Shown: piece after piece, positions 19,215 through 39,713 of the stretch
Numbering within the stretch: the stretch's first letter is position 1
Layout of the letters: every line of letters starts with the position of its first letter
Program-made: the position numbers and the translations under genes
Source of the DNA: an uncultured Clostridia bacterium
Lineage (GTDB): Bacteria > Bacillota > Clostridia > TANB77 > CAG-508
Reading direction: 5' to 3'
Length of the DNA: 39,858 nucleotides
NCBI GenBank assembly: GCA_944386675.1
Contig: CALXBY010000014.1
Span: forward strand, 1-39,858
The notes under the pieces: model-generated
Databases searched by the model: none
What the model was told of the DNA's origin: nothing
The model's input: only the letters and a program-made list of their open reading frames with translations

Positions 19215-19931
19215 CTATTTCTTATCTTTTTTTCTACTAAATTTATTAAATAGCATTCCAACAGCATGAACAATTTTCGTTGATTGACTATTGGCAACAT
19301 TTTTTCCTAATGCCTTTCCACCAACTGTTAAAGCAGAAACTAATGCACTAAGTAAAAACTGTAAATCAAAATCCAGTCCAAACTGGTCTGCAATTTTTAC
19401 AGCAATTAATGCACTTATGGCACCACTTAATACTCCACATATATCTCCTATAACGTCTGCACAAATATTTGCTACTCTAGGTGCATTTCTAATTAATTTT
19501 ATAGAATCTTTAGAACCTTTTACTTTTTTTGTTGCCTTTGCATGGAATTCATGCTCATCTGCAACAGTTACTGCTACACCTATAATATCAAATATAATAC
19601 CTACTAAAATAACTGCAACTAGAATTAATATTGCTGGTATTAAGCTTAGATTTGATACACCATTTGTTGATATATATGAAAATACCATAGATAAAATAAA
19701 AGTCATAATTGATACTTCTATAAACCATTTGATATTTTCGTCTTTCTTTTTCTCTTTTTCTTTCTTTCTTTTTTTCTGCTCTATTTTTTCTTTTACTTCT
19801 TCTATTTCTTTTTCATTCTCTTTTTCTGTCTTTGCATTTTCTTGTCTTATTGCTTTTTTCATTTCTTTTTTTACTTTTTCAGATTCCTCTTTACACGGTT
19901 TTGCTTTTTCTTTTTTTGTTTTCTCTTCCAA
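19215..19931 (-). CDS. coiled-coil membrane protein, function unknown
   Basis: A 238-residue protein in two parts. Residues 1 to about 68 are almost wholly Lys/Glu and should form a long charged coiled coil. The rest has about four hydrophobic helices (roughly 72-90, 98-122, 160-185, 190-210) with the conserved-looking patch D-E-H-E-F-H-A-K-A-T between helices two and three. Clostridial proteins of this shape are often labelled CorB-like (Mg/Co), but no CBS domains are present and I see no transport motif. GGAGGA-like sequence before the start is weak (AAGAAAGGATAG). Single gene behind the large RNA. Confidence 0.7.
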   Translation of the reverse strand: MEEKTKKEKAKPCKEESEKVKKEMKKAIRQENAKTEKENEKEIEEVKEKIEQKKRKKEKEKKKDENIKWFIEVSIMTFILSMVFSYISTNGVSNLSLIPAILILVAVILVGIIFDIIGVAVTVADEHEFHAKATKKVKGSKDSIKLIRNAPRVANICADVIGDICGVLSGAISALIAVKIADQFGLDFDLQFLLSALVSALTVGGKALGKNVANSQSTKIVHAVGMLFNKFSRKKDKK

Positions 19932-19955
19932 TTTCTAATCTATCCTTTCTTTCTT

Positions 19956-19990
19956 AGGTTGCCAAAATGCCCTGTCCCCTTTGGCAACTT
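19956..19990. repeat. GGTTGCCAAA hairpin with GTCCCC loop, copy 2
   Basis: AGGTTGCCAAA pairs with TTTGGCAACTT (one mismatch); the loop has CTGTCCCC where copy 1 has ACGTCCCC. About 30 of 35 positions match the copy at 12706-12740. It lies between the structured-RNA terminator and the gene at 19931. Confidence 0.7.
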
Positions 19991-20011
19991 TTAGCTCATC
20001 CCTAATATTCA

Positions 20012-20653
20012 AAAGAGGAAATGCTCGAGTTTTCCCAAGATTTCCTCTTTATTATTTTTTAGTTTAAGATGGCAAAAGTCTAAGTAAATTTTACAGTTTA
20101 GGTCTGGTCGAATTTCTCTATTTCCCGCATAACATTACTGTTATTGCCGTTTCCGTTTAAGGGAAATATCTATAAAATTATAGACACCAGATCGCCACTT
20201 AAATCTGTACCTTAATCCAAAGACTTCTATGCTTTTGTGAAAGCAAACATTCTAGAAGTTTTCCTTAACACACTTATATAAGTTTATTAGTCCTTTTTGC
20301 AAATGAAATTTCATAAGTACAGTAAAACTAATTTGGCCAAAACTATGTTTTACTAATTATTTAATCCCAATACATTCACTCAAGACAGGCTACTCTGTGC
20401 ATTTTGTGTCTTGGCACTCAACACAGGTTACTCTTAAATTATGTATAAAAAGATTCATTTACCATTAATTTAAGCCTCCACGAAATCAGGGAATCTTATA
20501 TATGCCATTATATAATACCCTAATCTCTTACTTCCTGAACACACACAAACTTGGCGTTTCGCGCACATTCAAGAAACTTCAACGATTTGCCCTTTAGTGG
20601 ATTTTTAGCCCCACCCTCATAAACTTAAGCATGACTAGAATAATGCACCATCG
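20012..20653 (-). ncRNA. large structured non-coding RNA, family not assigned
   Basis: No reading frame over 60 codons occurs on either strand from 19940 to 20830, yet the sequence is less AT-rich than ordinary gaps here and densely paired. A consensus promoter (20660-20689) and an 11-bp terminator stem (20012-20022/20040-20050) frame about 640 nt. Helices read directly: 20194-20203 with 20063-20073 (one bulge) enclosing 20186-20191/20103-20108 and 20161-20167/20120-20126; a stem-loop 20223-20235/20240-20259; an 8-bp stem 20321-20328/20347-20354; and interleaved pairs 20433-20441/20466-20474 and 20450-20456/20491-20497, a pseudoknot. I find no RNase P signature (GAGGAAAGTCC), no tmRNA tag and no SRP core. 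Size and complexity recall ROOL, OLE or GOLLD RNAs. Confidence 0.75.
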
Positions 20654-20659
20654 ATATAT

Positions 20660-20689
20660 ATTATACAGTATCTAGTATAAATATGACAA
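20660..20689 (-). promoter_or_regulatory. promoter of the large RNA
   Basis: TTGTCA (20689-20684), 18 bases, TATAAT (20665-20660), minus strand. The predicted start is about 20653. Confidence 0.75.
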
Positions 20690-20831
20690 ATTTCATTTAT
20701 GTTATATTTTACCAATGAAATATTTTCTTTGTTTCTAGCATTTCTATTTTTCATTCTTTCTTTTATTTTCTCATTTTTTCATTTATTTTCTCGTTTTTCT
20801 AATATTATGTATTTTTTATTTTTTCTTTATC

Positions 20832-21407
20832 TTAATATCCTATAAATTCTTTTAATTCTTTTTTTGTTTCTTCAAAATCTCTATCATTTTGAATATTTTT
20901 TACTTTTATATTAGGATATTTCTCTTTTATTTCTTCTGCCATTTCTAAATAAACTTTTTGTTGGTTAATACTATTTTCTGCTTCAAATTTTGAATTCTTA
21001 AATGTCGCTTTGTCTTTTCTATCTAATCTTGCATTGTATTTTTCAACATCTTTTAAATATAAAGTTATGTAATATATTTCAAAATCTAATTTACTAAATT
21101 CTTCTAATAAATTCTCATATACATCTGTAAATGTATAATCTTTTTTTCCTAATCTACAATAGTTTTCTTCTGTAAAAAATGTTCTGTCAAATACTAAATT
21201 GATACTTTTATTTTCCATCTTTTTTATATATTCTAATAAATTTATATACATTTCTTCTGCTTTTTTCTTTCCCTCTTTAGAACTATCTGAAGTTCCACAT
21301 AATCTATATAAATTTGTATAACTTAATGAATATCTTAAAAAATCTGTTACTGTGGTTTTTCCTGCACCTTGTGCACCTTCTACTACTATTAATTTTGAAT
21401 TTGCCAT
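20832..21407 (-). CDS. deoxynucleoside/thymidylate kinase-like P-loop protein
   Basis: A 191-residue P-loop kinase. Walker A is G-A-Q-G-A-G-K-T-T at about 10-18. V-F-D-R-T-F fits the D-R-x base-binding and catalytic motif of deoxynucleoside and dTMP kinases, and R-L-D-R-K-D-K-A is a plausible Arg-rich lid. It probably phosphorylates a (deoxy)nucleoside or its monophosphate; which one cannot be told. AAAAGGAGA precedes the ATG. It lies 44 bases behind the 44-residue ORF and shares its promoter. Downstream to 20690 is T-rich with no further gene. Confidence 0.75.
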   Translation of the reverse strand: MANSKLIVVEGAQGAGKTTVTDFLRYSLSYTNLYRLCGTSDSSKEGKKKAEEMYINLLEYIKKMENKSINLVFDRTFFTEENYCRLGKKDYTFTDVYENLLEEFSKLDFEIYYITLYLKDVEKYNARLDRKDKATFKNSKFEAENSINQQKVYLEMAEEIKEKYPNIKVKNIQNDRDFEETKKELKEFIGY

Positions 21408-36898: not shown

Positions 36899-39287
36899 GT
36901 TTAAATACATATCATGTTAGAGTTTAACATAAATATCTACATTTAGAGCATTATCATTTATATAATTTAAATATATCCTATATTAAAGTTTAACCAATAA
37001 ATCTTTGTAATTCTCTAAACACAACACCAAAATTTAAATACATCTTATGCTAAAGTTCAACTGTTGTAATGATACTTTCATAATCAAAAAATCCCATATT
37101 TAAATACATCTTATGTTAAAGTTCAACTCTAGGAATTAGAGATACCGCAATCATTATCCCCAATTTAAATACATCTTATGTTAAAGTTCAACTTTGATTT
37201 CCTTTTACTTTCCTCTGAACAGATAAAATATTTAAATACATCTTATGTTAAAGTTCAACGGAAAAAGTAAAAGAAATGTTTTATTGTTCTAATTAATTTA
37301 AATACATCTTATGTTAAAGTTCAACTTTTATCACATTAAAAGACTTATTGCAACATTTTTAATTTAAATACATCTTATGTTAAAGTTCAACTAATTGATT
37401 TAGTTCATACAGACACAGGATATTGATTTAAATACATCTTATGTTAAAGTTCAACCTTTAGAAAATTTATAAAAGAAAGAAGGTAGAAAAAATTTAAATA
37501 CATCTTATGTTAAAGTTCAACTAACGCTTGAAAGGATGTTTGAAATGGCAAAAATAGAATTTAAATACATCTTATGTTAAAGTTCAACAACTTCTGTCTT
37601 TATAGTAACAAGAGGATGTAATACCATTTAAATACATCTTATGTTAAAGTTCAACTAATTGATTTAGTTCATACAGACACAGGATATTGATTTAAATACA
37701 TCTTATGTTAAAGTTCAACAAGATGAGCAAAAAGTAGGCGAAGAACAAGAAGTATTTAAATACATCTTATGTTAAAGTTCAACAGATATACGATCCATAT
37801 TTGTATTCTGGAAAATTATTTAAATACATCTTATGTTAAAGTTCAACCTATATGACTATTACAAATGTGACTATTGTGGAGAATTTAAATACATCTTATG
37901 TTAAAGTTCAACTCTAATTCATCTAATACCATTCTGTTTTCTAGCATTATTTAAATACATCTTATGTTAAAGTTCAACAAAAATGAGAGGAGACGACATT
38001 CATGAAAATGGATATTTAAATACATCTTATGTTAAAGTTCAACAATACCTGCAATTTCACTTCTTCTTAATCCAAGCAAATTTAAATACATCTTATGTTA
38101 AAGTTCAACTGCAGATGAGCAATATGGAAGAGTTATGTGGGAATAATTTAAATACATCTTATGTTAAAGTTCAACTATATCTCCATATCCAACTGTTGTT
38201 AACACCGTTGTATTTAAATACATCTTATGTTAAAGTTCAACCAATTTCCTTTTCTTCTGTACTCACATGTTACTCATTTAAATACATCTTATGCTAAAGT
38301 TCAACGTACATAATACAGCAAATGATGCAAGTGCAAACAAATTTAAATACATCTTATGTTAAAGTTCAACATAGTTGTTGTAACCATAGCTTCCAGTTAT
38401 CAACATTATTTAAATACATCTTATGTTAAAGTTCAACTGTATATCACTTCTTTTAGATTGTCTATCTCTACTATTTAAATACATCTTATGTTAAAGTTCA
38501 ACAAATATGGAGTAAAAGAAACATATGTAAATGGCAAATTTAAATACATCTTATGTTAAAGTTCAACTTGTAGCAATATTTATAATAATTCCTGCTATAA
38601 TAAGATTTAAATACATCTTATGTTAAAGTTCAACTTACATCTATCATCAATTTTGGAAGATACATAGATATTTAAATACATCTTATGTTAAAGTTCAACT
38701 ACAGAAAAAGCAATTAAAAACAATTCAAATAGTAGATTTAAATACATCTTATGTTAAAGTTCAACCGTAATGGTTTAGATGGTGTAATATTTGCAATAGA
38801 ATTTAAATACATCTTATGTTAAAGTTCAACAATTGTGTACTTCTTTCCAACCATCTGATTCTTTTAATTTAAATACATCTTATGTTAAAGTTCAACTGAA
38901 GAATTTAGAAAAGCCATTTGTCAATCTGGAAATTTAAATACATCTTATGTTAAAGTTCAACCTTGACATACGTATTAATATGGGCTTGTATTTGGAATTT
39001 AAATACATCTTATGTTAAAGTTCAACAGAATGCAGAAACAGGAACTTCGGCAAGGGTAGAATTTAAATACATCTTATGTTAAAGTTCAACAGAAAATTAA
39101 AGGAGGATATGTTTATGGAAGAAAAATTTAAATACATCTTATGTTAAAGTTCAACTTAATATACAAAATTTTCTGCCAAACATTGTTGAAACATTTAAAT
39201 ACATCTTATGTTAAAGTTCAACAATCTGTTTGTTTGTATCCATCACTATTTGTAAAGATTTAAATACATCTTATGTTAAAGTTCAAC
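36899..39287 (-). CRISPR. CRISPR array, 37 repeats and 36 spacers, probably type I-B
   Basis: The 30-bp repeat, read on the minus strand, begins GTTGAACTTTAACATAAG and ends GTATTTAAAT, the ending typical of clostridial I-B repeats. Spacers are 34-37 bp and the period 64-67. Repeats are identical except the first three from the left (5, 4 and 1 changes) and the one at 38276 (1 change). Decay at the left, and cas2 plus leader at the right, show transcription right to left with newest spacers near 39287. One spacer occurs twice (37392-37425 and 37656-37689). A still weaker repeat-like stretch may exist near 36835. The 92 bases between the GNAT stop and the first repeat hold nothing else. Confidence 0.98.
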
Positions 39288-39425: not shown

Positions 39426-39713
39426 TTATAAAAATATATCCTCTGTATTCTTTTCTACATTTCCTAATGTTGTTTCTCCAATTGTTTTAAAATCCATTAT
39501 TTTAATAATGGATATAAAATCCTTTTTCTTATCAATTATTTTTTTTAGTTCAAATTCCAATTCTAAAATTTGTGAGTTTGTCAATGGCCCTCTAAACACT
39601 GATTTTTGCCAGTGATTCAAATATTTTTTGCATTTTTTAAATACTTTATTTACTCTTCTTTCATCTACATCATAAAATAAAAATACGTAATTATAATTTA
39701 TTTGTTTCTTCAT
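39426..39713 (-). CDS. cas2: CRISPR-associated endonuclease Cas2
   Basis: A 95-residue Cas2. The first strand ends F-L-F-Y-D-V-D-E with the conserved Asp at position 15; H-W-Q-K-S-V-F-R-G-P-L is the usual second-strand block. It forms the centre of the Cas1-Cas2 spacer-integration complex. Its start codon is 1 base past the cas1 stop, and it is the last gene before the leader, the standard order of I-B loci. AAAAAAGGAG precedes the ATG. Confidence 0.95.
   Translation of the reverse strand: MKKQINYNYVFLFYDVDERRVNKVFKKCKKYLNHWQKSVFRGPLTNSQILELEFELKKIIDKKKDFISIIKIMDFKTIGETTLGNVEKNTEDIFL

Follow-up and report, generated by a model that had tools for sequence, protein, structure and literature searches.

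Few bacterial RNAs are both large and elaborately folded, and the question raised by this locus is to which of them, if any, belongs an RNA on the minus strand near the middle of the 39,858-nucleotide stretch of DNA from an uncultured Clostridia bacterium that was analysed as a whole and is here called the window. A sequence-only reading had described there a large structured transcript in about 900 bases devoid of open reading frames, with its own promoter, a terminator and nested long-range helices, and had taken it for a ROOL-like RNA or a member of a new class. The claim of a non-coding tract holds, as no frame of at least 60 amino acids is found between 19938 and 20832 on either strand. 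Unless a strand is given, the features described below lie on the minus strand.

Identity and boundaries of the RNA

When the whole window was scanned with cmscan, minus-strand positions 20667 to 20053 scored 334.5 bits (E-value 8e-95) with the OLE RNA model (Rfam RF01071), the gathering score of which is 50; the match spans model positions 1-616 of 616 with few deletions, and bears out the large minus-strand RNA of about 600-640 nt that had been proposed. A significant match to a known Rfam class was thus found, although OLE can hardly be called an ordinary one. Among the other 115 OLE sequences aligned, identity to the window RNA ranges from 46 to 96% (median 76%), the nearest relative being that of locus L053 at 96%, and one OLE copy was found in the host genome, a metagenome-assembled genome (MAG) of 1.62 Mb and 75% completeness. 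That the RNA of about 600 nt is a complete member of this known class, and not of a new one, is virtually certain. The partners, the dimer and the phenotypes of OLE have been the subject of several studies (PMC11332333, PMC9723947, PMC12265935, PMC12286853, PMC12054373, PMC10898510).

The next gene after OLE is oapA (19215-19931, 238 amino acids, TTG start), which begins 121 nt downstream of the OLE match. Very probably, an uncultured Clostridia species, presumably an inhabitant of the gut, has here its ole-oapA locus, in which a complete OLE RNA, served by a promoter of its own, precedes the gene of its protein partner.

The size of the RNA, its elaborate fold, its own promoter and the lack of a reading frame are also what would be expected of a ROOL-like RNA or of a large RNA of a new class, and the earlier list of known large RNAs, which rightly included OLE, had been followed by a conclusion that named these two possibilities. 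A full-length OLE match beside oapA makes both scarcely conceivable. A permissive scan of positions 19900-20850 returned, apart from OLE, no Rfam family at E<=1, and ROOL, tmRNA, RNase P, group I and group II introns and SRP RNA are ruled out in this interval by the same result; as for tmRNA, ARAGORN found none in the window, and three tRNA genes only. ROOL RNAs, moreover, are described in phages and prophages, often near tRNA islands (PMC12286853), whereas the neighbours of the RNA in the window resemble ordinary metabolic genes and the three tRNA genes lie 11-16 kb away. ROOL and GOLLD resemble OLE in being large, ornate, self-assembling bacterial RNAs (PMC12286853), but neither has an Rfam match at this locus.

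With regard to the boundaries of the OLE transcript, the promoter was confirmed as a sigma-70-type site at 20660-20689, with the -35 element TTGTCA at 20689-20684, an 18-nt spacer and the -10 element TATAAT at 20665-20660; with 11 of 12 consensus matches, it ranks at the top of the 7 sites found (3.7 expected from shuffled sequences). The -10 element is constant in the window and 18 other loci, and the -35 element is variable (e.g. TTGTAA and TTGGAA). Transcription probably starts at about 20653-20652, since these positions follow the -10 element by about seven bases and stem P1 begins there. On the 3′ side, the 11-bp hairpin read earlier as a terminator is present at 20012-20050 (20050-20040 paired with 20022-20012, by direct reading), with a tail of four T only, and is probably a weak terminator; a terminator scan recovered its inner 6-pair stem and the tail (1 found, 0.2 expected). 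Some read-through into oapA appears likely because of the short T tail. Between this hairpin and oapA, a second inverted repeat (GTTGCCAAA ... TTTGGCAAC) lies at 19958-19988, of which the near relative L017 has only a partial and different version.

Secondary structure and loops of dimer contact

The segment 20652-20053 folds 3.5 standard deviations better than its shuffled versions, none of 100 being as good, and 139 of the 159 RF01071 pairs are standard in the window OLE, 15 being non-standard and 5 gapped. The structure was examined over a larger set of OLE sequences, made of 46 from the host family and 77 named OLEs (some records being shared between the two). After removal of L047, which is truncated, and of six named matches shorter than 540 nt, the 116 aligned sequences were reduced to 83 at <92% identity, the window included. 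Over these 83 sequences, 10,290 of 11,919 cells (86.3%) are paired, and both-side changes are found in 116 of 154 Rfam pairs, a statistic that is not corrected for kinship; covariation in homologues, which had been proposed as a check, is thus seen. Controls in which the partners were slid by 1-3 bases gave 37-49% of cells paired and 62-78 pairs with both-side changes, a comparison biased towards the tested structure, since the latter was taken from one of the sequences.

Stems P1, P2, P3 and P3.1, named in a published OLE description (PMC12265935), are absent from the Rfam model, in which both ends are unpaired, and are present in the window OLE; these names, as well as P5/P5.1 and P6/P6.1, were assigned by position. 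P1 joins 20647-20652 to 20068-20073 (489 of 498 cells paired, with compensatory changes), and is also part of the minimum free energy fold. P2 joins 20635-20641, which contains CUAG, to 20249-20255 (578 of 581 cells) and is nearly invariant among the 83 sequences, so that covariation is shown neither way. The 5′ strands of P3.1 (20633-20627) and P3 (20626-20619) occupy 20619-20633, and the 3′ strands of P3 (20287-20280) and P3.1 (20275-20269) occupy 20269-20287; 502 of 555 and 588 of 640 cells are paired in P3.1 and P3, respectively, with both-side changes in 7 of 7 and 7 of 8 pairs.

Of the three nested helices proposed initially, the middle one (20186-20191/20103-20108) and the inner one (20161-20167/20120-20126) both correspond to Rfam helices. 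The outer helix (20194-20203/20063-20073) is complementary in the window and fails over the 83 sequences, as part of its 3′ strand belongs to P1. Taken as a conserved alternative to P1, it is not supported in either form, with 569 of 827 cells paired in the bulged form and 403 of 581 in the unbulged one; the columns joined by some four of its pairs hardly vary, and for most of the others pairing is seen in between a quarter and two thirds of the sequences, with little compensation.

In the published structures, two OLE RNAs are joined through the A-rich loop L4, the loops of P5.1 and P6.1 and the palindromic L9.3, which alternates among GGCC, GAUC and AGCU (PMC12286853, PMC12265935). The corresponding elements of the window OLE are a P4-type hairpin (20596-20615), the A-rich loop of which, GCUAAAAA, is a dimer contact in those structures and is identical in 82 of 83 sequences; the P5/P5.1 hairpin (20531-20576), with GCC in its loop; the P6/P6.1 hairpin (20482-20527), with the GGC complementary to L5.1; and the P9 arm (20290-20386), with the palindromic UUGGCCAA, a kissing-loop site, at its tip. 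GGC is found in L6.1 of 83/83 sequences, and GCC in all ten L5.1 forms listed, which cover 80 of the 83. L9.3, among the 78 of 83 sequences listed, reads GGCC in 64, AGCU in 5 and the non-palindromic CGCC in 1, and is gapped in 8. The window OLE keeps all the dimer-contact loops, and from these the RNA would be predicted to dimerize.

The arm of the 3′ domain that carries P13 (20119-20168) contains the inner helix mentioned above (20168-20161/20126-20119), with 8 of 8 standard pairs, and carries a P13-type hairpin (20127-20147) with a GUAA tetraloop, the site of OapB in Halalkalibacterium halodurans. The P13 loop is of the GNRA type in all 83 sequences (76 GUAA, 5 GCAA, 1 GUGA and 1 GAAA). In J4a/5, near P5, where the kink-turn bound by OapC is expected, the commonest form is UCGUUGAAG (50/83). 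The weakest helix of the window OLE is 20474-20457/20449-20433, taken as P7, which keeps 11 of 17 model pairs. The length of the P7 hairpin (20474-20433 in the window) varies from 2 to 78 nt among the 83 sequences, with 42 nt in the window and a median of 21; P8 ranges from 15 to 34 nt, P9 from 56 to 122 and P13 from 20 to 22. At 32 and 97 nt, P8 and P9 of the window are at or near the family medians of 32 and 99.

Two further readings accept that the RNA is OLE and concern its present state or role. A decayed gene, lingering in a shrinking genome, would agree with the 15 of 159 non-standard model pairs and with the lack of OLE in 52 of 98 family genomes, which indicates that loss is common; it is very improbable for an RNA that spans all 616 model positions, is 96% identical to that of L053 and is followed by an OapA 95% identical to that of L052, with the promoter -10 element, the oapA frame and the conserved loops all intact. 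An OLE acting chiefly in cis, as the leader of oapA and not as a free RNA, receives slightly more credit and is still very improbable: oapA begins 121 nt downstream, and the short T tail of the intervening hairpin makes read-through likely, but the promoter and the hairpin bound a separate transcript, P1 joins both RNA ends, and OLE has been described as an abundant separate RNA found at the membrane with OapA (PMC9723947). The reading retained here is that of a complete OLE RNA accompanied by oapA.

OapA and the search for OapB and OapC

The window OapA is 95% identical to that of L052 and is not named by any Pfam or NCBIfam model above cut-off. In an alignment with 26 of 40 listed representatives (46 of 79 complete frames), D159 and D163 of its DxxxD motif are invariant in 27/27 sequences. 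At the N-terminus, some 65 residues rich in Lys and Glu are predicted as a helix in the model, ahead of the membrane core that holds D159-x3-D163. This extension is in frame, with substitutions, in the near relatives L017, L052, L053-L057, L059, L060, L061-L065, L066, L067-L069, L071, L072 and L086; at other family loci about 7-40 residues precede the OapA core. An in-frame TAA is seen in oapA of L017/L063 (same record, G042:C35) between the Lys/Glu-rich extension and an ATG before the membrane core, and may be a sequencing error or reflect a split gene or re-initiation. Elsewhere, OapA frames are broken or short in L007, L022 and L038, and in two pieces in each of G024, G049, G057 and G097.

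The monomer model of OapA is all-helical and of moderate confidence (mean pLDDT 74.8, pTM 0.51). In a Foldseek search of the PDB with this model no match reached E 0.001, and the six best, all weak, were proteins of the CNNM/CorB/CorC group (E 0.0066-0.38, query TM 0.36-0.48). The CNNM profile (PF01595) lists 13 OapA proteins of the family, all below cut-off (18.7-25.1 bits), and that of the window is not among them; a sequence-profile search of the PDB with OapA returned no CNNM protein and only LolE (E 0.014-0.031). No similarity was found between OapA and the CNNM protein of the host genome itself, in a comparison that is a weak test, with a single sequence on the CNNM side. The OapA core has a weak fold match to the MpfA/CorB/CNNM Mg2+ transporters, from which OapA differs in being short, without CBS and CorC domains, in having DxxxD and in working with an RNA.

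OapB and OapC are essential in H. halodurans, and the TANB77 and RF39 clades are largely without them (PMC11332333). In agreement with this, OapB, a small KOW protein, was not found: the 46 OLE genomes of the family had at most two KOW matches each at E<=0.1, in a search without the H. halodurans OapB as a positive control, and the host MAG, 75% complete, had no KOW match whatever. In G042, one of the KOW matches is L24, as judged by its neighbours, and the other a NusG-sized frame; the gene read as map adjoins infA there, with no KOW gene between them. A third KOW match was found only in G006, G013 and G084, all without OLE. As for OapC/YbxF, the three genomes examined (G000, G042 and G008) each hold one L7Ae match above cut-off, which in G000 and G042 lies beside genes read as ylxR and nusA, the usual place of YlxQ. 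In the same genomes, infA (PF01176) has no match in G008 (99% complete) or G000 and one in the related G042; its absence may be due to an assembly gap or to real loss.

From the work on H. halodurans and from cryo-EM, two OLE RNAs would form a dimer through the L4, L5.1/L6.1 and L9.3 loops; according to the published work, the dimer would then bind membrane-embedded OapA through P2 and P4a, and the resulting particle would adjust the handling of divalent cations, as well as growth under stress from cold, short-chain alcohols, Mg2+ or poor carbon sources. In the host lineage, the particle would be a reduced one, made of RNA and OapA and lacking both OapB and OapC, and the cell is equipped with a cation transporter of the MpfA/CorC type as well. 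By analogy, it is fairly probable that the OLE particle works in this way in the host; the functions measured in H. halodurans may not carry over, since OapB and OapC are essential there and were not found here. A more elaborate scenario is offered tentatively and is rather improbable: the particle would have been pared down to RNA and OapA with the loss of OapB and OapC, the P13 GNRA loop being kept because it takes part in an RNA-RNA contact in which OapB is ordinarily no more than a helper, the OapA extension now providing some of the RNA-protein binding that was lost, and OLE-OapA and MpfA perhaps replacing each other within the family.

Distribution in the family and the relation with MpfA

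Among 98 genomes drawn from the host family, OLE was found in 46 under stricter filters, by which weak matches are lost, and none in the remaining 52. OapA was found in 45 of the 98, all of them OLE carriers, the exception being G053, in which OLE lies at a contig end. The OapA start is at most about 360 nt from OLE in 44 of 46 family loci, and in G010 OapA is encoded about 1.8 kb downstream of OLE on the same strand. Similarly, among the 80 named loci of OapA, 77 have OLE upstream, 6 of them in the form of matches <540 nt, and the other three (L058, L112 and L129) are truncated where a contig ends. The genomes of the family set, of 1.1-2.0 Mb, are those of uncultured Clostridia. The distribution of OLE-OapA is patchy and varies between species of one genus; in the host genus, 2 of the 5 genomes in the set (G066 and G087) have neither.

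The window OLE resembles other full-length OLEs in the whole model, P1-P3, the dimer loops, the P13 hairpin, the adjacent oapA and its own promoter, and differs from them in that the host is not a known extremophile, that OapB and OapC were not found and that P7 keeps 11/17 pairs. With OLE variant 1, which belongs mostly to the TANB77 clade, it shares the small genomes of uncultured Clostridia in which OapB and OapC were not found, but the variant has shorter P7, P8 and P9, often without the P13 tip (PMC11332333), whereas the window OLE spans the model and has a P13 GNRA loop.

Transporters of the MpfA/CorB/CNNM type have been proposed as functional equivalents of the OLE particle, and OLE and MpfA tend toward mutual exclusion in published profiles, in an analysis that excluded the species with variant OLE (PMC11332333). 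If the host belongs to TANB77, as is probable, the present locus raises the question of OLE and MpfA in a clade of the sort that was set aside by that profiling. The host genome also encodes a CNNM protein of 454 amino acids, a size fitting MpfA. In the family, OLE with OapA is commoner where a CNNM/MpfA match is absent: CNNM above the Pfam cut-off was found in 30 of the 46 genomes with OLE and in 46 of the 52 in which none was found (Fisher p 0.0076; G095, the best CNNM match of which holds two stops, was counted as present), and genus g21 contains two genomes with OLE alone and two with MpfA alone. When OLE was shuffled within genera, p rose to 0.08 for the 98 genomes and to 0.18 when the 87 with a completeness of 90% or more were taken, and the trend may be the result of shared ancestry.

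Of the conserved bacterial RNAs with a biochemical role that is still unsettled, OLE is one of the largest. The class and its OapA partner are already in print, as are its occurrence in uncultured Clostridia of the gut and the absence of OapB and OapC in such clades (PMC11332333). The OapA extension and the fixed P13 loop in genomes where OapB was not found were met in no description in the literature covered, and no other candidate paper on OLE RNA with MpfA or TANB77 was found in the openly licensed literature. A family that seems able to dispense with both accessory proteins, with the P13 loop and the majority of the dimer contacts nevertheless fixed, could allow the RNA-OapA core to be separated from its accessories.

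Elsewhere in the window, a CRISPR array of the CRISPR-DR3 type extends from 37098 to 39287 on the plus strand, with 33 repeats above cut-off; the repeats starting at 38212 and 38341 are at double the usual spacing, so that one weak repeat may lie between them. The array is followed by a Cas2 gene at 39426-39713 on the minus strand.
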